Source: Nitrososphaeria archaeon
GTDB lineage: Archaea > Thermoproteota > Nitrososphaeria > Nitrososphaerales > JAAOZN01
Length of the DNA stretch: 64,000 bases
Direction of reading: 5' to 3'
NCBI GenBank assembly: GCA_029775855.1
Contig: JARVJZ010000005.1
Location: 1-64,000 of the forward strand
The notes below the pieces were generated by a model. The model worked only from the letters and a program-made list of their open reading frames with translations. It made no database searches and was not told the DNA's origin. The translations under genes and the position numbers were made by a program. Of this stretch, positions 33,680-54,173 are shown piece after piece (the stretch's first letter is position 1; each line of letters opens with the position of its first letter).

Positions 33680-34549
33680 TCAGCTGCTTGCTGATTTGAT
33701 GTGCCCCTTCTCAATTAAGTAATCACGAAGTGCGTGCTTCCAATCTCTAACTTTTATCCCGTATTCCTTGAGTTTTATGCTTTTTAACGCAGAAAATAGT
33801 GGGCGCTTAGCTTTAATTTGGAGCTGATCTGTTTTAATCGGTTTTAAATCCGCATTAATTCCTGTGAGTTTGAAGATCACATCGGCAAATTGGAACCATG
33901 TGCAGTAGCCCTTATTGGTTGCATGGTAGATTCCATATGGTAATTGTAGTTCCAGAACTTTCTTGATTATTAGCGCGGCATCTTTTGTGTAGGTGGGGCT
34001 TATCCACATGTCATCCACAACACTTATGGGCTCGTTTTTCTTGGCTTTAGCTATCATTGTTTCAACGAAGTTCCCGCCTTTCCCGCTGGCACCAACCACT
34101 CCGAAAAGGCTTGCCACCCTGAGAATGTAATGTTTTGGATTCTGTTTCGTGAAAAATTCTCCTGCTAATTTAGAGATTCCATAAGTGTTAAGAGGGTTTG
34201 GCGTGTCTTCTTCCGTATAGGGCTGACCCTTTAAACCGTTGAAAACATAGTCTGTGCTTATAAAAACGGTTGTGGCTCCGACTTCCATCGATGCTTCAGT
34301 TACATTTTTTGCTCCAATGGCATTTACAGCGAATGCCTTTTCAGGTTCTACTTCACATTGATCAACTTTTACATAAGCAGCCGTGTTTATGACTATGTGC
34401 GGATTGTGCATTTTTAGTACTTTGCAGCTATGCGGGCAGGTAACTTCTATTTCCTTATGAGTTAAGCCAACGACCTCATGATCTTGTCCTAAAACTCTCA
34501 TGAGGTCTGTACCAAGCTGCCCGGTTGAGCCTATAACGATTATTTTCAT
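33680..34549 (-). CDS. rmlD: dTDP-4-dehydrorhamnose reductase
   Basis: A 289-residue extended SDR enzyme for the last step of dTDP-L-rhamnose synthesis. The NAD(P) loop is GSTGQLGTDL at the N-terminus, ISTDYVFNG carries the family's STDYVFdG motif, and YGISKLAGE supplies the catalytic Tyr-x-x-x-Lys. It is last in the rmlA-rmlC-rmlB-rmlD run, 44 bases after rmlB. The start is ATG. Confidence 0.93.
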   Translation of the reverse strand: MKIIVIGSTGQLGTDLMRVLGQDHEVVGLTHKEIEVTCPHSCKVLKMHNPHIVINTAAYVKVDQCEVEPEKAFAVNAIGAKNVTEASMEVGATTVFISTDYVFNGLKGQPYTEEDTPNPLNTYGISKLAGEFFTKQNPKHYILRVASLFGVVGASGKGGNFVETMIAKAKKNEPISVVDDMWISPTYTKDAALIIKKVLELQLPYGIYHATNKGYCTWFQFADVIFKLTGINADLKPIKTDQLQIKAKRPLFSALKSIKLKEYGIKVRDWKHALRDYLIEKGHIKSASS

Positions 34550-34593
34550 AACTACAACCCTTAATTACAATGTAATGGAAACGATGAGCAATG

Positions 34594-35592
34594 TCATGTG
34601 AATTTGTGGTGGAAGTCGATTTCCTGTGCTTGGATTATCGTGGTCCACCACCATCTGTTTGTTTTATACCACTCAATTGTTTTTCTTATACCGTCTTCAA
34701 ATTTTGTTTTAGGCTTCCATCCAAGCTGTTTTATTTTTTGAATATCTAGAGAGTAGCGTATGTCGTGTCCAGGCCTGTCCTTGACAAATTGGATTAGGCT
34801 TTCAGGTTTGTCCATAATTCTTAGTATCGTTTGTACGACTTGGATGTTTGTGAATTCTTGTTTGCCAGCTATGTTGTAGACTTGTCCAGTTTCGCCTTTA
34901 TGCAGTATGAGGCTTAGGGCTTCGCAGGTATCCTCTACAAAGATCCAGTCTCTAACGTTTTCTCCCTGCGCATACACTGGAATTTCGCGGTTTAACAAAG
35001 CGTAGATAATGGTTTTTGGAACAAGTTTCTCAGGATGCTGGTAATAGCCATAATTGTTTGTGGACCTTGCAATAACTATAGGTAAATTGTAAGTTTCAAA
35101 AAAGGCTTTGCAAAGCAGGTCCGCTGAGGCTTTAGAAGCAGCATAAGGGTTTCTAGGGGAAAGCCTATCCTCTTCTTTAAAGCTGCCTTCCAAAATGTGG
35201 CCGTAAACCTCATCTGTACTTATATGCACAAACTTTTCCACATCATGTTTTCTACACGCTTCCAATAAGGTGTATGTTCCAAAAACGTTTGTCAAAACAA
35301 AGCTGCCCGCCTCAATCACACTTCTATCAACATGGGTTTCAGCTGCAAAATTCACCACAAAGCTGCATCCTTGAATGGCTTTATCCACATCCTCTCTACG
35401 GCAGATGTCGCCTTCAATTAAAGTTATTTCGGTTTCAACGTCCTGCAGGTTTTCTCTTCGCCCAGCATAAGTCAACTTATCAAGAACAACACACTCCATA
35501 GAATGTTCATTAACTAAGTGGCGGACAAAGTTGCTACCAATAAAGCCAGCTCCGCCTGTGACAAGCACTTTCAACGCTTTATCAACCCTCAC
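34594..35592 (-). CDS. rmlB: dTDP-glucose 4,6-dehydratase
   Basis: A 332-residue extended SDR. The NAD loop is TGGAGFIGSN, HISTDEVYGHI gives the Ser/Thr-Asp-Glu catalytic region, and YAASKASAD the Tyr/Lys pair. RSTNNYGYYQHPEKLVPK is diagnostic for RmlB. It converts dTDP-glucose to dTDP-4-keto-6-deoxyglucose. The GTG start overlaps the rmlC stop by four bases (GTGA). Confidence 0.95.
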   Translation of the reverse strand: MRVDKALKVLVTGGAGFIGSNFVRHLVNEHSMECVVLDKLTYAGRRENLQDVETEITLIEGDICRREDVDKAIQGCSFVVNFAAETHVDRSVIEAGSFVLTNVFGTYTLLEACRKHDVEKFVHISTDEVYGHILEGSFKEEDRLSPRNPYAASKASADLLCKAFFETYNLPIVIARSTNNYGYYQHPEKLVPKTIIYALLNREIPVYAQGENVRDWIFVEDTCEALSLILHKGETGQVYNIAGKQEFTNIQVVQTILRIMDKPESLIQFVKDRPGHDIRYSLDIQKIKQLGWKPKTKFEDGIRKTIEWYKTNRWWWTTIIQAQEIDFHHKFT

Positions 35593-36092
35593 TTATACGG
35601 CGGGTAAAACCAGTCCCATGGTTTGCCAACTCTTGGGTCGTCTTTCTTGCCATTGAGAGATTCGGGTATTATATTTTGGTCGTTCCATGGCCTACGTTCT
35701 TCATCAGGATCTTTGTAATCATATAATTTTGAGACGAAGTAGATGGTTAATGAAGGGTTGTTTCCGATCGTTTTAGTTCCATGCCAATAATGGCCTGGAA
35801 TCCTGACGATTTGTAATTTATGTTCGCTTGCTATGATCTCATCTAGTTCTTTTGTTTTCTCATCGTAGGCGCATATTTTCATGGCACCTTTAACTACTAT
35901 AAAGTAGTCTGTTTGGCCTCTGAGGTGTCTGTGCCAAGCTCTCACAATGTTAGGGTAGCTGTATGAAAGGTTTGCCTGGGCTATCCATTCATCACCTAAA
36001 ATTTCCTTCCAATCTTGGCGGAAAATTTCGCAGAAGAATCCTCTCTCATCAGAAATCTTCTTTAACTCAAATATTTTCACTCCATCTAACAT
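35589..36092 (-). CDS. rmlC: dTDP-4-dehydrorhamnose 3,5-epimerase (RmlC-type cupin)
   Basis: A 167-residue cupin. ISDERGFFCEIF at the front, the catalytic-His segment RAWHRHLRGQTDYF and the later IPGHYWHGTKTIG follow the RmlC pattern of the divergent archaeal type. Its place between rmlA and rmlB supports the assignment. It epimerises C3 and C5 of the keto-sugar. The family is broad, and an isomerase of another keto-sugar is the alternative. Confidence 0.85.
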   Translation of the reverse strand: MLDGVKIFELKKISDERGFFCEIFRQDWKEILGDEWIAQANLSYSYPNIVRAWHRHLRGQTDYFIVVKGAMKICAYDEKTKELDEIIASEHKLQIVRIPGHYWHGTKTIGNNPSLTIYFVSKLYDYKDPDEERRPWNDQNIIPESLNGKKDDPRVGKPWDWFYPPYK

Positions 36093-36127
36093 TATTCTCC
36101 CCTTTTCAACAAGTGGAATTTATTTCT

Positions 36128-37186
36128 TTATACTTCTACTTCTGAGTAGTCTCCCAAATGTAGCCTTATGGTGTTTTTTCTGTTGTTTTTTGTTACTTTT
36201 GCATATCTACCTATGAGGCTCTCTTCTATGCGGTCAACGTCTATTATTTGGGCGTTTTCCATGATTACACAGTATTCTATGTTAGAATTTTTTATCTTAG
36301 TGTTTTTTCCAACGCTCGTATATGGGCCGATAAAAGAATTTTCGATTTGGCAACTTCCACCTACTACAGCGGGGCCTCTTATGGTGCTGTTAACTATTTT
36401 TGCATCTTTTTCTATTTTAACCCTCCCCTCTACAGTGCTGTTGACTGTTTCACCTTCTATTTCACGTTTTATGTATTCGTCGAGGATTTTTGCGTTAGCC
36501 GCCAAAACGTCGTCCTTTTTACCCGTGTCAAGCCACCATGTTTTTAGGATTTCAGCCTTTACTTTATAGCCCAAGTTTATCATTTCTTGTATTGCATCAG
36601 TTATCTCAAGTTCACCACGCCAAGAAGGTTTGATGCGCTCTATTGCATCGTGAATTTTGTTTGAGAATAAATAAGTTCCGACTATAGCAAGGTTGCTGAT
36701 AGGTTCCTTGGGCTTTTCCACAAGTTTTATAATATTTCCTTTTTCATCTAGCATAGCCACACCGAACTTTGATGGATCATCCACCTCTTTCAGCAGTATT
36801 AGCGCATCCAAGCCTTCTTTTTCAAATTTTTCCACGAAGCTTACAATTCCTTGGCCCTGAAGGTTGTCTCCCAAACACATGACAAAATCTTCCTTACGCA
36901 AGAACTCGTTAGCGGTTTTAACAGCGTGCGCTAATCCTAAAGGCTCTTGTAAAATATACGTAACGTTAAACCCCCAATGTGCCCCATCTTTAACATACTC
37001 TTTAACATAGCCGCCAGTTTCTGGAGCAATTATGACACCGACGTCCTTGACCCCTGCTTCGGCCACTTGGTCTAGAACGTACCCTAAGATAGGTCTATTA
37101 GCTACTGGAATAAGCTGCTTAGCCAAAGTGAAGGTTAATGGACGGAGCCTGCTCCCTCTGCCGCCGCTTAATACAAGGGCCTTCAT
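36128..37186 (-). CDS. rmlA: Glucose-1-phosphate thymidylyltransferase, long archaeal type
   Basis: A 352-residue nucleotidyltransferase. It starts MKALVLSGGRGSRLRPLT, the pyrophosphorylase signature, and contains the EKPKEP and ITDAIQEMI motifs. After residue 245 a left-handed beta-helix region follows (repeats around NSTIRGPAVVGGSCQIENSFIG), as in the long RmlA form of archaea. It makes dTDP-glucose (or UDP-glucose) and is first in the rhamnose operon. A TATA-like element lies about 25-30 bases upstream. Confidence 0.93.
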   Translation of the reverse strand: MKALVLSGGRGSRLRPLTFTLAKQLIPVANRPILGYVLDQVAEAGVKDVGVIIAPETGGYVKEYVKDGAHWGFNVTYILQEPLGLAHAVKTANEFLRKEDFVMCLGDNLQGQGIVSFVEKFEKEGLDALILLKEVDDPSKFGVAMLDEKGNIIKLVEKPKEPISNLAIVGTYLFSNKIHDAIERIKPSWRGELEITDAIQEMINLGYKVKAEILKTWWLDTGKKDDVLAANAKILDEYIKREIEGETVNSTVEGRVKIEKDAKIVNSTIRGPAVVGGSCQIENSFIGPYTSVGKNTKIKNSNIEYCVIMENAQIIDVDRIEESLIGRYAKVTKNNRKNTIRLHLGDYSEVEV

Positions 37187-43517: not shown

Positions 43518-46500
43518 CTAATACTTTGATTTCCTATAAAAAGAGACTATAATAAAAATAAGTCCCACCACAGTTATGTAGTTAAGAAGAACAAATTCTC
43601 TACTATCTAATATAGATCTTGGTATCCACCATTCATTCCAACTACTCTTAGCCAAAGAAATTGCTTTATATTCTCCTTTAATCAATAGCTCAGAAAGAAC
43701 AACCATAGAGTCGTCTGCTCCATCAATTATAAAATTCACGGGACCGTCTATGTAGAAAGGAGTATCTACAGCATTAATGCCCAAAGTCCAGTCTACCTGA
43801 ACTCTTTCAAATTCAGAATGAGTAGTACTAGAAACATTCACACGCGTGGCAATTATTCTAAGGTCCTGCGAAGGCAAAAATTCAATTTTGATATCTCCTC
43901 TGCTAATGTTAAAATTCATAGTTTTTTCATCGTGTAATATGGTAAGTCTCGCATACCCTTTGTCAAATATTCGGATTACGAGTGTAAATCCTTCAGGAAA
44001 GGTGATCGTGGAATATCTTCCTGTGTTTTCCGAAACAATGTTTATTCTAGAAGAAGTAATGATAGGCGTTGCGTTTTCACTTAATTCAAGACTTAGTAAC
44101 TTAATGTTTCTGAGGATATCCTCAGACTGGTTATTCTCACTTAGTGGGAGTTCTAAGTTAACGGCAAACTTGCTCATTGAAGGAATAAAGAAAGACTTCG
44201 GCATTAGCGTAGCGTTTGTAATTGAATTTAACCCAAATAACAACACCCTATCTGTTCCTCGAAGTTCATCTCTATATGGTAATATGACCTCTGTCGGAAT
44301 AGCTGGTGATATTAATTCATAATATGTGTTTGAACTTCGCGTCTGAAGTAGGTAATTAAGATACGGATAAAGCTCAACAAAATAAATAGTTCCGTTATAA
44401 AATTTTCCAGCAAATATATGGGAAGAAACTGCATTCCCATCATTAGAATAATAACTTATCGTATTAGATCTATTATTTAGCGACAAGAATATCGGAAGTT
44501 TAAGAGTATGTAGTGGTATAATCTTACCGTTAACAATAATGCCGTTAGCTGTTGTAGTCTGGTTGATATGAATAGCAAGTTCTTTGGCGAAAAATTTATG
44601 ACCTGATGCACCTTCTCCGTTTAAAATAATTAATTTCCCACCTTCTTTAATCCATTCTAGGATATTATCCTGTATGTAAGGTGGCGGATAAGCTTCTGAA
44701 AAGTCGTAGGGGGTAAGTAGTACCTTAACTTTATTTGTCTTCAATTTACTTAGAAACTCAAAATCTTCAGAATAATATGTTGTATAATTTAGATTTTTGA
44801 GTGAAAGTGCTTTAATAATAAAGCTATATGTTCTCTCTCGCGCTATTAATGGTTCACTAGTTCTGCCAATTACTCTTCCGTTGATTATTTTGCCGTTATT
44901 ATTGTAGCCGCTCATGTCTAAGGCGTCTCCAGAGTTAAAGTTGATATCCAAAATTAAGTCGCTTCTGTCAACTTCATAACCAAGCGCTCTACTTTTAATC
45001 TCTTCTAATGATAAACTCCTCTTATAAATCCTTACATCATCAACTTGGCCATAGAATGGATAATTGTTTTTTCCGCGCATGCCAATTTGTAGACTACCTT
45101 CGCAAACTACTTTTCCTTTAAAAAAGGATTTAGCCACTTCTTGACCATTCACATAAAGTTTGCCAACTGTACCATTATAAGTCAGCGCTATATGAAGCCA
45201 TTCATATAGGGGAACCGGCGTTGTAGACCATAAAACATGCTCAACCCTGTCTTCTGTAATTAGATTAAAATATAATCGTCCGTCATTTTTTATGTAGAAA
45301 TGTGAACTTATAAGTGGGAAATTACCAAATTCAAGAATACATCTCCAATCATCTTCGTTTCCTTCTATCTTTATCCAAACTTCCCAAGTCATACTTGTTT
45401 TTGCTTCGTTCAAGATTTCAGAAGGTGGAATGGCTATGTAGCTATCTCTGCCATTGAGTGAGACCGCAAAATCTTCTGTTTCTAGTGTAGTGGAGTGTTG
45501 TGGCTTTAAAACCGCTAATATCGAATTCGCAGTAGGCGGAGAGCTTTGAGGTATCTCAAGCAGAATAATGCGTTTATTTTCTATTTTGATAGGTAGAATA
45601 TTCATAAGTTCTGATAGTAATCCAACATTGGCTGGTAACCCACCGTTTATTTGGTTCTTATCAAGTAACAAATATTTTACTTCTTTACCTAGACTTGAGT
45701 ATATATTACGTCTGATTGTATCGAAGAATAATTCAGGATTTATTGTCATAAAGGGTCTAGCTAAAGTAGGGAGATCAAAGCCCACAGACTCATGCTCTGC
45801 GAACTGATATATGAATGAGTTCCAAGGCCATGGGGCTAAGATAACTTCGGTATGTTTTGTAAGATTTCTTATCTGATCTATAATTTCCATGTCATTTCCA
45901 GAAAGTACTTGACCAAGTCTTACATCAGATCCGTACCTAACCGAATAATATTCAAAGTATGCGCGTGCAAAAAGTAAGGTTGAAGAGATGCCGCTAATAA
46001 ACATCATAATTATAAAGAGAAAAGCAATTACCCCATGCCTCATTGATTTGTTTTGCTTTAAAGCAAGTGTTCTAATCAATTTTAGCGGCAAGATAGGTGA
46101 TAATATTGCCAAACCAATATTAACATGCATAGTAATACGAGCATCAGGAATAGGGCTTTCCCAGATTGAGTATATAAAAAGAAGGTCGGAGACCACTGCT
46201 ATAATAATCGGAGAAATCGCTAAGATAACACCGATAATTAACGCATTATAAGATATAAATTTTCTCATAAATAAAACAGTAATTAAAGCAAGCAAGAATA
46301 TTGTCCCAAATCTGAGGGGATAAATATACCAGGGGGTCATATATGAGGCTGCGCTCAATGTAAATTTGTCAGCGACGTTATTCCAAACAATAAATGAAAG
46401 CATATACAGATAAATCGTTAGAACCGTAAGAGATAGACGTAGCACATTAGACCTAGAAAGAGAAGTAAAAGTTTTTAAATATTTACTAAAATTAAATTTA

Positions 46501-48005
46501 GTTCTGATAAATAATAATATACTGCAAAATCCTACTACAGCAGCTATCCCTATTAACATATGGAAGAACTTACCACCCGCATATATTTCAAAAAACAGCT
46601 TCGGAGATGGTAAAGTCGAATAGGACATAAGGAAGAAGACTAACACTAATAGTATAGCGACAACAAACGAAATAAGGATGTCCCACGGCTTAGATAAATA
46701 TTTATTATAGAAAATGTACACAAAGAGAACTATGACAAATAAAAGAACAATCTCACTAAAATGTATGTAGATGCCAAGAGTAACAAACGCTGCGATCATT
46801 AAGATTCTAAGCAATCTTGATTGAAAATCTCGAAGCACTAAATAAAATGTCAAAAGTAGAATAAAAAGACCGAACTGTTGCGGATGAAGCCAAAAAGACA
46901 ATCCATGTACACCAGTAAAAACATCACCTAAAGATTGTGTCTGGTAAGTTGCTTCGTAGATGGGTATTCCACGTGTGAGATTTAGATAAATTGCATATAA
47001 TCCTCCAAAACCTGAAAATAGAGAGAAAACTATAGTCGCAACTATAGACTCTTCATTCTTAAGTAATAGTTTACTTACTAGGTAAAAAGACAAGATCGGA
47101 AGAACTAGAAGAGGATATAAAGCCATATATGAATTAAGAGAAGGAAGTCCAGACGAAAACAAAAATAGACCTGTAAACATGTATAATGCAATATAATTCC
47201 ATACACGGGGGATTAAAATATGTGCATTAATAGTTCTTAGAGTTTCTCCATAATGCCGCCAATGGTCATATCCAGCAACGAACCTATCAGGAAAGTGCAT
47301 TAGGAAAAACACCACAATATAGAATAAAACCAACGCACACATTATAACTAATGTGATTAGATCAGTTAATCTGAAGTTAGAATGACTTAAGGTTTCACGT
47401 CTATGATTCTTTATAAATCGGCAAAATACAGCCACAAACAGAGATAAATTTAAAATCAAAAGGTAGTAATAACTGTTTGTAAAATTACCTTGCATTAGTC
47501 CGATAAATCCTAGAAGTGTAGCCAGAAAGAGACTTAAACCAACAGATAGAATACCTTTCTCAAGGCGCGATAACTTATCATTCCTAGATACAAGAGTTAA
47601 TATGCCATAACCCGGATAAACGAAAACTACAAGAAAAGCTCCACACGCTTTAACCCAATTAAGTATCGGTATATCAGCCCAATTAATGAATGACTGTGTA
47701 GATATCGATGGTACTATTAACAAGACAACCATAAATATTGGCCATGTTAGTAACGAGACGTAATATATTCTACTGGAAATTCTCAATTCTGTAGAATTTT
47801 CAAACATGACTAGATAAAATAGAAAGTAAACAATGATAAATATCAAAAAGAAAGTAAGGATAAAAGGCATACTAAAAATATAGTATGTAGGCAATCCTGT
47901 AGTAAGTAACCAAAATGACACAAAACTAACTATAACAGAAGCTAAGCTAACCAAGAAAATGTTGAATAGTTTCTTAAAATTAGATATTTCGTTGTCTTTG
48001 GTCAT
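43518..48005 (-). CDS. Giant membrane protein with LamG domain (about 1,495 residues)
   Basis: From the ATG at 48005 (a TTG at 48020 is also possible) the protein has an N-terminal half of about a dozen or more membrane helices reaching residue ~680. Between helices there is a loop with HFPDRFVAGYDHWRHYGETLRTI, the acidic His-rich type found in GT-C oligosaccharyltransferase-like proteins. Residues about 845-1025 form a LamG/concanavalin-like beta-sandwich (SYIAIPPSEI, WLHIALTYNGTVGKLYVNGQEV, QVDDVRIYKRSLSLEEI). Beta-rich extracytoplasmic segments and one last membrane helix near the C-terminus follow. It probably acts on surface glycans; no catalytic motif is certain. Confidence 0.75.
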   Translation of the reverse strand: MTKDNEISNFKKLFNIFLVSLASVIVSFVSFWLLTTGLPTYYIFSMPFILTFFLIFIIVYFLFYLVMFENSTELRISSRIYYVSLLTWPIFMVVLLIVPSISTQSFINWADIPILNWVKACGAFLVVFVYPGYGILTLVSRNDKLSRLEKGILSVGLSLFLATLLGFIGLMQGNFTNSYYYLLILNLSLFVAVFCRFIKNHRRETLSHSNFRLTDLITLVIMCALVLFYIVVFFLMHFPDRFVAGYDHWRHYGETLRTINAHILIPRVWNYIALYMFTGLFLFSSGLPSLNSYMALYPLLVLPILSFYLVSKLLLKNEESIVATIVFSLFSGFGGLYAIYLNLTRGIPIYEATYQTQSLGDVFTGVHGLSFWLHPQQFGLFILLLTFYLVLRDFQSRLLRILMIAAFVTLGIYIHFSEIVLLFVIVLFVYIFYNKYLSKPWDILISFVVAILLVLVFFLMSYSTLPSPKLFFEIYAGGKFFHMLIGIAAVVGFCSILLFIRTKFNFSKYLKTFTSLSRSNVLRLSLTVLTIYLYMLSFIVWNNVADKFTLSAASYMTPWYIYPLRFGTIFLLALITVLFMRKFISYNALIIGVILAISPIIIAVVSDLLFIYSIWESPIPDARITMHVNIGLAILSPILPLKLIRTLALKQNKSMRHGVIAFLFIIMMFISGISSTLLFARAYFEYYSVRYGSDVRLGQVLSGNDMEIIDQIRNLTKHTEVILAPWPWNSFIYQFAEHESVGFDLPTLARPFMTINPELFFDTIRRNIYSSLGKEVKYLLLDKNQINGGLPANVGLLSELMNILPIKIENKRIILLEIPQSSPPTANSILAVLKPQHSTTLETEDFAVSLNGRDSYIAIPPSEILNEAKTSMTWEVWIKIEGNEDDWRCILEFGNFPLISSHFYIKNDGRLYFNLITEDRVEHVLWSTTPVPLYEWLHIALTYNGTVGKLYVNGQEVAKSFFKGKVVCEGSLQIGMRGKNNYPFYGQVDDVRIYKRSLSLEEIKSRALGYEVDRSDLILDINFNSGDALDMSGYNNNGKIINGRVIGRTSEPLIARERTYSFIIKALSLKNLNYTTYYSEDFEFLSKLKTNKVKVLLTPYDFSEAYPPPYIQDNILEWIKEGGKLIILNGEGASGHKFFAKELAIHINQTTTANGIIVNGKIIPLHTLKLPIFLSLNNRSNTISYYSNDGNAVSSHIFAGKFYNGTIYFVELYPYLNYLLQTRSSNTYYELISPAIPTEVILPYRDELRGTDRVLLFGLNSITNATLMPKSFFIPSMSKFAVNLELPLSENNQSEDILRNIKLLSLELSENATPIITSSRINIVSENTGRYSTITFPEGFTLVIRIFDKGYARLTILHDEKTMNFNISRGDIKIEFLPSQDLRIIATRVNVSSTTHSEFERVQVDWTLGINAVDTPFYIDGPVNFIIDGADDSMVVLSELLIKGEYKAISLAKSSWNEWWIPRSILDSREFVLLNYITVVGLIFIIVSFYRKSKY

Positions 48006-48048
48006 TTCTACCAAGAGCAAGATGGCCTAATTAGTAATCATTTAATTT

Positions 48049-50592: not shown

Positions 50593-51219
50593 TCAAGAAT
50601 TGTTAAGCTTAAGCGCTCTTCGATAAATGATTATGGGGCGCTCATCTAACTTTTCTATACATTGAAAATCATCACAAGTATAAATATCGAGAGGAATTCT
50701 CCTTAGTAGGGCTCTAACTCTCTCAAGGAAGGCAAAAGTACACGCTCTAACACCGTTAACAAAACCTTTAAGCCTAATTATTCGAATATCAAGATCCGAC
50801 CGTTCTGTCAATACGCCACGTGACAAGCTGCCCAAAACTAAAATGGCATCTATACTATTCTCGTTTTTAGCTCTTCTACTAAGGTCTTCTAAATACTCTA
50901 CAAAACAACTTAAACTAGTCCTAGAGAAACCCAAGTTCTTTAGTAATACATACAGGTGTCCATTAAAGAGCCAGTGTAAAGTATGCGATATTGCTAATGT
51001 ACAAAAGACAGCCGAAACTGGATTCATTAAGAGCGATAGCAGAAAGAAAAAGGGCAAAAAGAAAATAAGGTCCAGAAACAAAAAAATTATTTTCTCACTT
51101 CTTTCCATGTATAAAAAACCGTGAAAACACCAATTAGTAAAGATTATTATAGTAAATTTCACTAAACGGGGCAACTTCTTACTGTAGAGTATCTTTCTGT
51201 GGAAACTATTTGGTTTCAT
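50593..51219 (-). CDS. Membrane-anchored nucleotidyltransferase-fold protein
   Basis: A 208-residue protein. Two membrane helices (about residues 44-66 and 69-88) precede a minimal nucleotidyltransferase domain with LVLGSLSRGVLTERSDLDIR (Gly130-Ser131, Asp142, Asp144) and a third acidic position near Asp178 (IPLDIY). That is the full Pol beta-type catalytic set. The ATG at 51219 is chosen over the GTG at 51231 because it forms a TAATG junction with the stop of the GT-kinase fusion gene. The family adds nucleotides to proteins, RNA or small molecules; a surface-glycan tailoring role here is inference. Confidence 0.78.
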   Translation of the reverse strand: MKPNSFHRKILYSKKLPRLVKFTIIIFTNWCFHGFLYMERSEKIIFLFLDLIFFLPFFFLLSLLMNPVSAVFCTLAISHTLHWLFNGHLYVLLKNLGFSRTSLSCFVEYLEDLSRRAKNENSIDAILVLGSLSRGVLTERSDLDIRIIRLKGFVNGVRACTFAFLERVRALLRRIPLDIYTCDDFQCIEKLDERPIIIYRRALKLNNS

Positions 51220-53057
51220 TAAACATTGCACAAGATTCCCACAATAGTAGAATGCACGCTAACAACATCTCCTTCGGCATTTACCACATTTGGTCTAAGA
51301 ATTTTCGAAAGTTCGTCATAAAATCTTACTTTAAGTTCTAAATCCTTATCGTAGTAAACATCAATCCGCCTAGTTTTCAAAACCTGAGGTCTGGCAGTTA
51401 ACATAACAATTGCAGCTTTGTTCGCCACTCTTAACAGAAGCTTGCCAACGAATGAATGTAATAAATTTGGGTTTCTTGTTGACACCATAAGGTCAACTAA
51501 AGTGTCATATGGCGACCTATCGCATATAACGTATTTACCACGCCACAACCTCAGATAGATTTTAGTGAAAACAGAAAATAAAGTATCAAATACTACTGTA
51601 TAGCTGTATATCAAAGCTACTGGCTTGATTCTGTTAAAGTAGTGATATGCCAATCTTTTTCTATTACCTAGTCGCTCAATTCTAGTTAGAAATAAAAGTC
51701 TAGCTAAAGCTAGAATCATAAGTGACAATTTGTGGTTCCAGCGCATCCAAACATACTCAGCTGGGATACCATTATTTCTCAAAACCTTAACAAGTATCTT
51801 TGCTTGGGTAGTTTTGCCCACCCCATCTGGACCTATTATAAATATTAGTGATGGAATGTTATTTCTCAGTCTATTAATGGTCATCTGCACTAGTCCCACA
51901 AAAGCATCACAGATTTTGTTCCATCGAGGATAGTATTGGCTCATGTAATTCCTTGCACTATAACCGAGTTTCTTTGCCAATTCAGTGTTGGTAAGTAGTG
52001 CTATCAGAGAATTTCGTAATGCAATATAGTCATTGCTTTTAACGATTAACCCACGAGCATCAAGTAATTCCGGAATACCATTTAGATCCGTAGATATAAT
52101 GGGCTTTCCTAACAACATAGCCTCAAGTATCGTTATCGGAACATCAGAGATAACAAGTTTAAAAGGAAGACAAACGACATCTGCAGCCCTAACATATTTC
52201 CGTATTTCATTTGACGCAAGAAAATGCGTTATTATTCTTACCCGGTCATTTGCTTCAGTCTTGCTTATGATGTTTTTAAGATAAGCTATCTCTTTCGCTG
52301 ATGCTTTGTCTTCAACTCTCGCTAAAAGAATTAACTTAGAAAAAAAATTCTTACTCACATCTACAAAAGCTTTAATCAGTATGTCTGTACCCCGTAAAGT
52401 TAAAGGTGGCCCAAAATACAAGATTACAGATGCATCCTCAGGACTAATATCCTTTCTGATCTTATTAACCTCATTATCTTCTGGTAATTGTAAATCAGAC
52501 TCGCTAATTCCCTGCGGTATAACTTTTATTCTTGCAGAATGAACACCATAGTCAACTAACTTTCTTTTATTGGCTTCGCTTAAGACTACTATGTGGTCAA
52601 AAGAGTTTAATCTTCTCCTGATCAAAGAAGGCGGAATGATTGCACCTATGAAATGTATAAATAAATATCTAAAATGCCTTATCATCTCAATTAAGCCGGG
52701 TTTGAATACATCCTTCAGATCATAAATAGGGCTTGTAAGAACGCAGATAGCTGGCAAGCCTAATTTGAGTTTTGGCTTCAATAGACTGGCTACCCCCAAC
52801 ACAACAATAGCAACATCTGGTTTAATCGTCTTTAACTTTTCTAGGGCTTCTTTTGACCAACCGAACCATGAGCTTAACCTCTTTACTGAGTATACTGTTA
52901 AACCTTCAAATGTATTGGTTTCAAACTTGCTATTTGAAAGTATTATTAGCTCAAGACCTCTTTGGGCAATACCTTTACCAAGTTCGTAGATGAATCGCCA
53001 AGGTTGTTTGTTAATATTCTCCTTTTTGAAATCAAAACAGATTATACAGATCTTCAA
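51219..53057 (-). CDS. Glycosyltransferase family 4 fused to a thymidylate kinase-like domain
   Basis: A 612-residue fusion. Residues 1-395 form a GT-B glycosyltransferase with SVILYFGPPLTLRGTDILI and the donor-site region around FKLVISDVPITILEAMLLGKPIIS. Residues 400-612 form a P-loop kinase of the dTMP kinase class: Walker A GPDGVGKTT at 409-417, the DR-x-P-like CDRSPYDT near 508-515, and a C-terminal Arg-rich LID-like segment (KTRRIDVYYDKD). The start is TTG. Kinase domains of this class can phosphorylate nucleotides or sugars. The two activities may act in sequence in nucleotide-sugar use. Confidence 0.88.
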   Translation of the reverse strand: MKICIICFDFKKENINKQPWRFIYELGKGIAQRGLELIILSNSKFETNTFEGLTVYSVKRLSSWFGWSKEALEKLKTIKPDVAIVVLGVASLLKPKLKLGLPAICVLTSPIYDLKDVFKPGLIEMIRHFRYLFIHFIGAIIPPSLIRRRLNSFDHIVVLSEANKRKLVDYGVHSARIKVIPQGISESDLQLPEDNEVNKIRKDISPEDASVILYFGPPLTLRGTDILIKAFVDVSKNFFSKLILLARVEDKASAKEIAYLKNIISKTEANDRVRIITHFLASNEIRKYVRAADVVCLPFKLVISDVPITILEAMLLGKPIISTDLNGIPELLDARGLIVKSNDYIALRNSLIALLTNTELAKKLGYSARNYMSQYYPRWNKICDAFVGLVQMTINRLRNNIPSLIFIIGPDGVGKTTQAKILVKVLRNNGIPAEYVWMRWNHKLSLMILALARLLFLTRIERLGNRKRLAYHYFNRIKPVALIYSYTVVFDTLFSVFTKIYLRLWRGKYVICDRSPYDTLVDLMVSTRNPNLLHSFVGKLLLRVANKAAIVMLTARPQVLKTRRIDVYYDKDLELKVRFYDELSKILRPNVVNAEGDVVSVHSTIVGILCNV

Positions 53058-54173
53058 TTAACACAAATTTCTGTATATCGCTTCTATACGGTCTGTTATC
53101 TTACCCCAAGTATATTTTTCTTCAATCGTTTTTCTAGCATTGTCTCCAAGCATCTTCATTAGTTTCCTATCATCAAGTAGCATAGTGATAGCCCTAAACA
53201 TCTTTTCTGGAGATCTTGGAGGAACTATGAGCCCATTATACCCATCTCTAATAACATCTAAGCATCCTCCAATAGCGGTAGCAACTACTGGTAATCCGCA
53301 GCTCATAGCCTCCAGAAGGACGGTAGGCAAACCTTCATAATGCGATGGCAAAAGAAATATTGTAGCATTTTGATATATCTCAATTAACTTTTTGTAATTA
53401 ACGTGACCTATAAGCATAATTTTGTTTTCTAATCTGTGCTTTATTATCTTGCTTTTTATTGTTTTTTCTAATTCTCCTTTTCCTACGATGACAAATTTAA
53501 CATCTTGGCCTCTAACAATTTGCTTCGCGCATTCTAATAGATCAAATAGACCTTTCCTATAGCTCAAGCGACCTACATATAGAACGTAATTTCCTTCTTT
53601 CTTTTTTTGGATAGGGGTAAACTCCTTCTCATTAACACCATTCCCTACAACGACAGAGTTGCATAATCCGTAATATTTTTTTAATTCTTGAGCAACGGAA
53701 TTAGATACTGTAGTAACGACCTTCGAGTGTTCCATAAGATCCTTGACTATCGGATAGCAAACAACACGAGTTAGAACTTTTATTCCTAGCGATTTTAGAT
53801 CTACTATTTCTATGTACCGAGCGTCTTCGAGCAAAGAAGTATGTATTGTACTCACCACGGGGAGGTTTGTCTTAACACGTGGGGACAAAGGAGAGTGTAT
53901 ATGGACTACATCTAACTTAGCTTCTACTAACTTAAAGAGATCGTTAAGGAAGTAGCTAAATATGTTAATGTGGAAGGGATAGAGAGGAATAAAAGGCACC
54001 TTAAATACTTCAATACTCTCTATAGTCTCCTTTCTATTTTCGTTTAACCGGCCAGGGACGATAATGATAATATTATGTCCTCGTCTCATAAGCTCTTTTG
54101 ACAAATTATAAACGTGATATCCAATTCCTTCTTGAGGGGGGAAAGGGGTAGTCATGATCATACATATGTTCAT
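53058..54173 (-). CDS. Family 4 (GT-B) glycosyltransferase
   Basis: A 371-residue glycosyltransferase. The N-terminus MNICMIMTTPFPPQEGIGYHVYNLSKELMRRGH is the classic GT4 opening. The C-terminal half has NYVLYVGRLSYRKGLFDLL and PSHYEGLPTVLLEAMSCGLPVVATAIGG with the conserved E(x7)E. Its stop directly abuts the GT-kinase fusion start, indicating co-translation. Confidence 0.93.
   Translation of the reverse strand: MNICMIMTTPFPPQEGIGYHVYNLSKELMRRGHNIIIIVPGRLNENRKETIESIEVFKVPFIPLYPFHINIFSYFLNDLFKLVEAKLDVVHIHSPLSPRVKTNLPVVSTIHTSLLEDARYIEIVDLKSLGIKVLTRVVCYPIVKDLMEHSKVVTTVSNSVAQELKKYYGLCNSVVVGNGVNEKEFTPIQKKKEGNYVLYVGRLSYRKGLFDLLECAKQIVRGQDVKFVIVGKGELEKTIKSKIIKHRLENKIMLIGHVNYKKLIEIYQNATIFLLPSHYEGLPTVLLEAMSCGLPVVATAIGGCLDVIRDGYNGLIVPPRSPEKMFRAITMLLDDRKLMKMLGDNARKTIEEKYTWGKITDRIEAIYRNLC

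Follow-up and report, generated by a model that had tools for sequence, protein, structure and literature searches.

FKRP has a catalytic domain of the nucleotidyltransferase (NTase) fold, and on alpha-dystroglycan the kinase POMK phosphorylates O-mannose before the ribitol-phosphate transferases act (PMC6965139). LicD represents a subgroup of the NTase superfamily that uses CDP conjugates (PMC11666461). In archaea, a table for Methanothermobacter wolfeii SIV6 contains MWSIV6_0728, a 'Thymidylate kinase' labelled as DNA synthesis (PMC7022856). Here, we analyzed the first 64,000 nucleotides (positions 1 to 64,000, forward strand) of contig JARVJZ010000005.1 of a Nitrososphaeria archaeon (assembly GCA_029775855.1), hereafter the window. 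One open reading frame (ORF) of the window, at 51219..53057 on the minus strand, joins a GT4 glycosyltransferase (GT) to a P-loop kinase of predicted thymidylate kinase (TMPK) fold. On our tentative reading, which we hold at slightly less than even chances, the ORF unites, in frame, two neighboring genes of a surface-glycan cassette and belongs to a glycan-phosphorylation module, in which the product is handed from the transferase to the kinase.

The fusion ORF encodes 612 aa without an internal stop and begins with a TTG immediately after the TAA that ends the upstream GT4 gene. The N-terminal part (residues ~1-393; 51879..53057, minus strand) is a GT4 domain of the GT-B type, termed GT4b, in which Pfam detected Glyco_transf_4 at residues 21-185 (E 5e-12, 46.6 bits versus a cut-off of 28.5) and Glycos_transf_1 at residues 201-370 (E 5.9e-19, 68.7 bits versus 26.4). 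The C-terminal part (residues 404-612; 51222..51848, minus strand) is the kinase domain, assigned by homology, an AlphaFold2 model, and structure matches. It contains the Walker A motif, or P-loop, GPDGVGKTT (residues 409-417; 51807..51833, minus strand) and CDRSPYDT, a D/E-R-x-x-x-D motif (residues 512-519; 51501..51524, minus strand). Thymidylate_kin (PF02223) covered residues 409-432 only, with 21.4 bits under a cut-off of 27. AlphaFold2 modeled 218 residues for the kinase half, with a mean pLDDT of 83 and a pTM of 0.79. Foldseek returned a best E of 5.4e-7, and 49 of the top 50 rows were thymidylate or dTMP kinases, the remaining one being a deoxyadenosine kinase. The best 50 rows of VIA-align were all thymidylate or dTMP kinases, headed by the Sulfolobus tokodaii dTMP kinase ST1543 (5h70_B; Z 19.6, rmsd 2.7, 185 aligned). 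Because the model matches dTMP kinases structurally, the fused half is, as modeled, a complete TMPK-fold domain and not a stray P-loop. The 612-aa frame, the Pfam matches, and the structure match confirm the architecture proposed in a first-pass annotation of this DNA, a GT-B glycosyltransferase fused in frame to a P-loop domain of the dTMP kinase class.

Each half of the fusion has a stand-alone counterpart in an archaeal genome from another family of the same order (G013). Residues 1-386 aligned with a G013 GT gene at 33% identity, and residues 404-606 aligned with a stand-alone 219-aa kinase on the same contig at 37% identity. Because each half aligns with a separate gene on one G013 contig, the two-domain frame is, to judge from these alignments, not a product of chance. 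The homologous regions lie only ~54 nt apart (codons 386-404), where both other frames have stops. The E-x7-E motif is not kept by every GT4, and it is missing from the fused GT half, where the first Glu is replaced and the sequence reads SDVPITILEA. A common pattern, SDxPxxxLEA, occurs in the GT4b of the window, of G013 (SDMPLTVLEA; L028 11339-12625), and of Herpetosiphon (SDAPLSLLEA; L163 6808-7974), and we read it as a putative subfamily mark of GT4b.

The two fused domains belong to a conserved set of genes. In the window, a second glycosyltransferase gene, GT4a (53058..54173, minus strand; assigned by Pfam), lies directly upstream of the fusion, and the end of the kinase ORF is overlapped by 13 bp by the gene for a membrane-anchored Pol-beta-type NTase of 212 aa, termed NTtm (50593..51231, minus strand). 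NTtm matched NTP_transf_2 with 25.4 bits, over the cut-off of 21, and has a hydrophobic segment at residues 45-82. On the G013 contig, with KIN denoting the kinase, the order is KIN-NTtm-Alg14-Alg13-GT4b-GT4a; KIN and NTtm overlap by 14 bp, and identity to the window proteins is 36% for NTtm and 41% for GT4a (L028 12697-13839). Plasmid pHAU01 of Herpetosiphon aurantiacus DSM 785 carries Alg14-Alg13(GT28)-GT4a-GT4b-KIN-NTtm, with an unfused kinase; in searches of 72,556 plasmids with the kinase and with the NTase, it was each time the only record matched. There, GT4b (Haur_5093) overlaps KIN (Haur_5092) by 25 bp and shares 30% identity with the GT half of the fusion (E 2e-51), while Haur_5094 (GT4a) occupies the same relative position as its window counterpart and is 37% identical to it; the NTases share 32% identity. 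PLSDB, whose gene table has known gaps, lists no gene for the membrane NTase ORF of pHAU01 (L163 8566-9222), right after Haur_5092. The GS, SDLD, and PLD motifs of NTtm are invariant between the window and G013, and the Herpetosiphon copy keeps GS, DLD, and PLD. In the tree, the kinases of the window, G013, and Herpetosiphon formed one clade (support 99/81). Gene order and homology thus show a cassette of GT4a, GT4b, TMPK-fold kinase, and predicted membrane NTase; both other carriers found also have genes of the Alg14 and Alg13 types. By sequence, the window order GT4a-GT4b::KIN-NTase is the Herpetosiphon order with one join. Alg14 was not found in the window's source genome (G000).

We then compared the kinase with genuine dTMP kinases. 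G000 has a separate dTMP kinase (G000:C5:145611-146150) that scored 109 bits against the NCBIfam cut-off of 83.25, whereas the fused kinase scored 18.4 bits with TIGR00041 (20.1 in a second search) against the same cut-off. With a kinase profile at E <= 1e-14, matches were obtained in 94 of the 398 genomes of a phylum sample and in 80 of 256 genomes of another class, both counts including some canonical dTMP kinases. From 89 loci including the window, hidden Markov models (HMMs) gave 102 kinase ORFs, of which 6 canonical dTMP kinases were subtracted to leave 96 family kinases. Some of these do exceed the PF02223 cut-off. In dTMP kinases, the [ED]P, A-x-R, and AY(Q)G motifs take part in dTMP binding. 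AY(Q)G was present in 9/9 dTMP kinases and 0/96 family kinases, [ED]P in 8/9 and 10/96, A-x-R in 8/9 and 8/96, and all three together in 8/9 and 0/96. The ninth dTMP kinase is that of G000 itself, in which only AYG matches the pattern, so that [ED]P and A-x-R are weaker evidence. This enzyme (L094 5600-6202, G000:C5) is divergent, with a GIDKAGKTT P-loop, AANR, and SNIAYG replacing the common motifs.

The catalytic positions are retained across the family. G409, G414, and K415 were present in 91/91 family rows with a residue there (94 aligned), and over the 94 rows conservation was 98% for D/E513, 89% for R514, 88% for D518, and 97% for R563. The loss of kinase active-site residues, which the first-pass annotation had named as an observation that would speak against its proposal, was therefore not seen in the alignment. 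The family rows also have W-x-R-x-x-H and D/E-R-x-x-x-D motifs of their own and an insertion. The fused enzyme is thus probably not a dTMP kinase, and because the P-loop, D/E513, R514, D518, and R563 are conserved across the family, it is probably an active kinase with another acceptor. Given this conservation, and given that Herpetosiphon encodes the two halves as neighboring genes that overlap, a functional pairing of GT and kinase appears more likely than a meaningless join.

The genes around the kinases point to a recurrent partner. In the neighborhood counts, loci L094-L096 were left out and unlabelled ORFs shorter than 130 aa were dropped; the gene labels are those of HMMs built on small seeds, the NTP_transf_5 seeds having first been noticed near kinases, and the family counts are not independent, several genomes being close relatives and the loci having been chosen for holding a kinase. 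An NTase (NTP_transf_5 or membrane type) was the immediate same-strand neighbor of 34 of the 93 unfused kinases, compared with 9.8 +/- 2.8 (maximum 21) in 10,000 trials of random placement within the same loci, from which 3 NTase-fused kinases were excluded. Among controls, the same adjacency was observed for 20/118 GT4, 8/78 GT2, 1/41 SDR, and 21/643 unlabelled ORFs. Three archaeal genomes contain direct kinase-NTP_transf_5 fusions, with the NTase first in L101 7771-9558 and the kinase first in L102 6809-8419 and L103 7085-8707. Pfam confirmed all three, the kinase half of L101 scoring 26.4, just under the cut-off of 27; the L102 and L103 kinases are sisters in the tree (100/99), and L101 is outside the tree set. 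Such fusions, as predicted from sequence, are a natural link from kinase to NTase in both domain orders. The NTP_transf_5 partners keep the acidic triad (D 96%, D 100%, and D/E 96% of 47 rows). These data show the kinase to be a branch of the predicted TMPK fold without the AY(Q)G motif of dTMP kinases, repeatedly beside or fused to putative Pol-beta-fold NTases. Glycosyltransferases were found within four genes of 64/96 kinases, and an RmlA-like gene within four genes of 1/96, compared with 8/78 GT2, 17/41 SDR, and 27/643 unlabelled ORFs.

Some further members of the family and its partners were recorded. Eight family kinases have N-terminal hydrophobic segments, and L164 is apparently a ninth by eye; in these loci (L106-L112, L114, and L164), 2-3 hydrophobic segments precede the kinase domain, and several have few labelled glycan genes nearby. 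At locus L126 (7804-9306), an NTP_transf_5 gene comes after a tandem pair of family kinases. PADLOC matches were marginal, the best being VakA for L102 (E 3.2e-6). No PDB sequence matched the NTP_transf_5 protein of L064 at E 1. A single-sequence search of the PDB with the window NTase matched mt-SAF37 (E 2.5e-5); the match was gone with a two-sequence profile at E 0.1, and we attribute it to chance. NTtm was found in none of the viral contigs.

The first-pass annotation had suggested a search for the same fusion in other genomes. Frames of at least 400 aa were sought among the listed kinase matches, in genome draws that overlap, and none of the samples searched contained a second GT4-kinase fusion. 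At E <= 1e-14, the 398 genomes yielded four long frames, in G000 (612 aa, GT4), G689 (602 aa), G723 (541 aa), and G519 (537 aa), the last three being NTP_transf_5 fusions and not GT4 fusions. The 256 genomes at the same threshold yielded G689, G519, and G852 (403 aa), the last with an N-terminal extension that is hydrophobic by eye and had no GT match. In 400 genomes at E <= 1e-6, G000 was accompanied by G208:C14 (frame 447, model positions 5-68) and G218:C49 (frame 464, positions 5-47), both of them weak matches to part of the model, and in 201 genomes at E <= 0.001 a long kinase frame was found in G000 only. With the full-length query against 61 genomes, GT and kinase were joined only in G000 and matched at separate places in G013 and G003. 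Among the 594 matching stretches listed for named genomes, at least 14 loci were found, 12 with a kinase frame (all except L068 and L076) and none with the kinase fused to a GT. No publication on a GT4-kinase fusion or a TMPK-NTase pair was found in the open-access papers searched.

We propose a working model for the module. GT4b would add a sugar to a lipid-linked oligosaccharide at the cytoplasmic face of the membrane, and the tethered kinase would phosphorylate this sugar or else a small alcohol meant for attachment to it. Next, the membrane NTase would move a nucleotidyl or phospho-alcohol group onto the glycan in a LicD/FKRP-like manner. In this scheme, the fusion would pass the product straight from transferase to kinase. 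A broader proposal, in which a P-loop kinase of TMPK fold, labelled in annotations as thymidylate kinase, and a Pol-beta-fold NTase form an unrecognized two-enzyme system for phosphorylating lipid-linked surface glycans, widespread in Thermoproteota and scattered in bacteria, with the window gene as the GT-to-kinase handoff link, we regard as doubtful.

Several observations weigh against these proposals. The GT4-kinase fusion was observed in a single genome, so that a recent accident or an assembly error could explain it. No NTase was the immediate same-strand neighbor of 59 of the 93 unfused kinases. Within four genes, NTases were no commoner around kinases (52/96) than around GT4 (62/118), the other controls being 39/78 GT2, 13/41 SDR, and 174/643 unlabelled ORFs; because the four-gene frequency is no higher than around GT4, the NTase excess around kinases is one of immediate adjacency only. 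GT adjacency was likewise no higher for kinases (43/96) than for GT4 (55/118). Most NTase partners are NTP_transf_5, a family other than that of NTtm, and in the phylum sample NTtm itself was detected in 1 of 398 genomes, namely G000, without G013 being reported. Neither the fused kinase half nor its G013 counterpart showed a membrane segment in a hydropathy scan.

The kinase might instead serve donor supply, making a soluble precursor (an alditol phosphate, a sugar phosphate, or a nucleotide other than dTMP) that the NTase activates, with the fusion to the GT fixing only stoichiometry or location. LicA and LicC are such a kinase-cytidylyltransferase pair that makes an activated donor, and the three kinase-NTase fusions are consistent with this arrangement, as are five kinase-NTase pairs around which no GT, SDR, or methyltransferase gene was labelled over a distance of four genes (among them two from near-identical loci and one from the edge of a locus). 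However, the membrane segments of the window NTase and of the eight kinases, together with the overlap or fusion with GT4b, favor a membrane-bound acceptor, and known donor-making cytidylyltransferases are mostly of another fold; we consider donor supply unlikely. The same N-terminal hydrophobic segments, along with long hydrophobic-rich helices that follow the P-loop helix and precede the DR motif, could point to a polyprenol or lipid kinase that phosphorylates the carrier and not the sugar. Such an activity by itself would leave the NTase partner unexplained, the window kinase half has no predicted membrane segment, and we judge it very unlikely. Most improbable is the role suggested in the first-pass annotation, production or recycling of dTDP for dTDP-rhamnose by a dTMP kinase beside a dTDP-sugar transferase. 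It has in its favor the TMPK fold, rmlABD genes 14 kb away, and the departure of the G000 dTMP kinase from two of the three motifs, so that motif loss alone is no proof. Supply of a dTDP donor was nevertheless dropped as the leading reading because of the low TIGR00041 score, the separate dTMP kinase over its cut-off, the loss of AY(Q)G, and the rarity of RmlA-like neighbors.

It is also conceivable that the fusion is non-functional, arising from an assembly error, a recent stop loss, or an indel, so that two proteins are made or work separately. A single indel or lost stop within the ~54 nt could have made the join. Besides the restriction to a single genome, there are several other loci at which GT and kinase genes overlap or almost touch; both alternative frames close in the junction, one of them with ATGA at codon 392, and the ATG of this codon could start the kinase alone. 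On the other hand, the in-frame homology to GT genes extends as far as residue 386 and that to kinases begins again at 404, which confines any error to this short stretch and leaves little room for a spacer. We consider a non-functional join unlikely and retain the glycan-phosphorylation module with transferase-to-kinase handoff as the preferred reading.

The fusion lies in a glycan gene region of a 1.5-Mb genome that is 98% complete. The dTDP-rhamnose operon that the first-pass annotation had placed close by is present, ~14 kb from the fusion, and serves here as context only: rmlD, rmlB, a 167-aa gene at the rmlC position, and rmlA (33680..37186, minus strand), with rmlD, rmlB, and rmlA over their NCBIfam cut-offs and no NCBIfam match at 1e-10 for the 167-aa gene. 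A 1500-aa ORF of the glycan cluster (43518-48020) also had no NCBIfam match at 1e-10. The glycan stretch at 43.5-58.2 kb has a GC content of 0.366, compared with 0.415 for the window, and neither of two same-genus genomes, G001 (72% complete) and G002 (99%), had a kinase match. Owing to the low GC and the missing kinase in both relatives, the stretch is perhaps a laterally acquired accessory island.

It is probable that many of the 'thymidylate kinases' in archaeal glycosylation islands do not make DNA precursors. The natural fusions, GT4-kinase here and kinase-NTP_transf_5 in three genomes, predict enzyme partnerships that can be tested, which would give experimental access to the uncharacterized NTP_transf_5 family and to the phosphate chemistry of surface glycans in archaea.

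Compared with dTMP kinases (PF02223/TIGR00041), the fused kinase shares the fold, the P-loop, the D/E-R motif, and a near-invariant arginine (563) in what we take, by its position, to be the lid region; it differs in having no AY(Q)G, a score far under the equivalog cut-off, motifs of its own, an insertion, and the fusion to a GT. Haur_5092, annotated as 'Thymidylate kinase-like', is closer: it belongs to the same clade and is accompanied by GT4a, GT4b, and NTtm in equal order, but it is a separate gene that overlaps the GT4b gene and is 27% identical to the fused kinase. LicD and FKRP, with POMK, illustrate what the module may work like, as a functional analogy and not as a claim of membership. 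LicD and FKRP are NTase-fold enzymes acting on glycans, and in alpha-dystroglycan a glycan kinase acts upstream, as proposed here. LicD was not among the Pfam matches of the window NTase at E 0.01, and POMK has a protein-kinase fold and not a P-loop fold. MWSIV6_0728, likened here by its table entry, is listed between the protein-glycosylation genes 0722, 0726, and 0732 (PMC7022856), suggesting that kinases of this kind have been annotated by fold.

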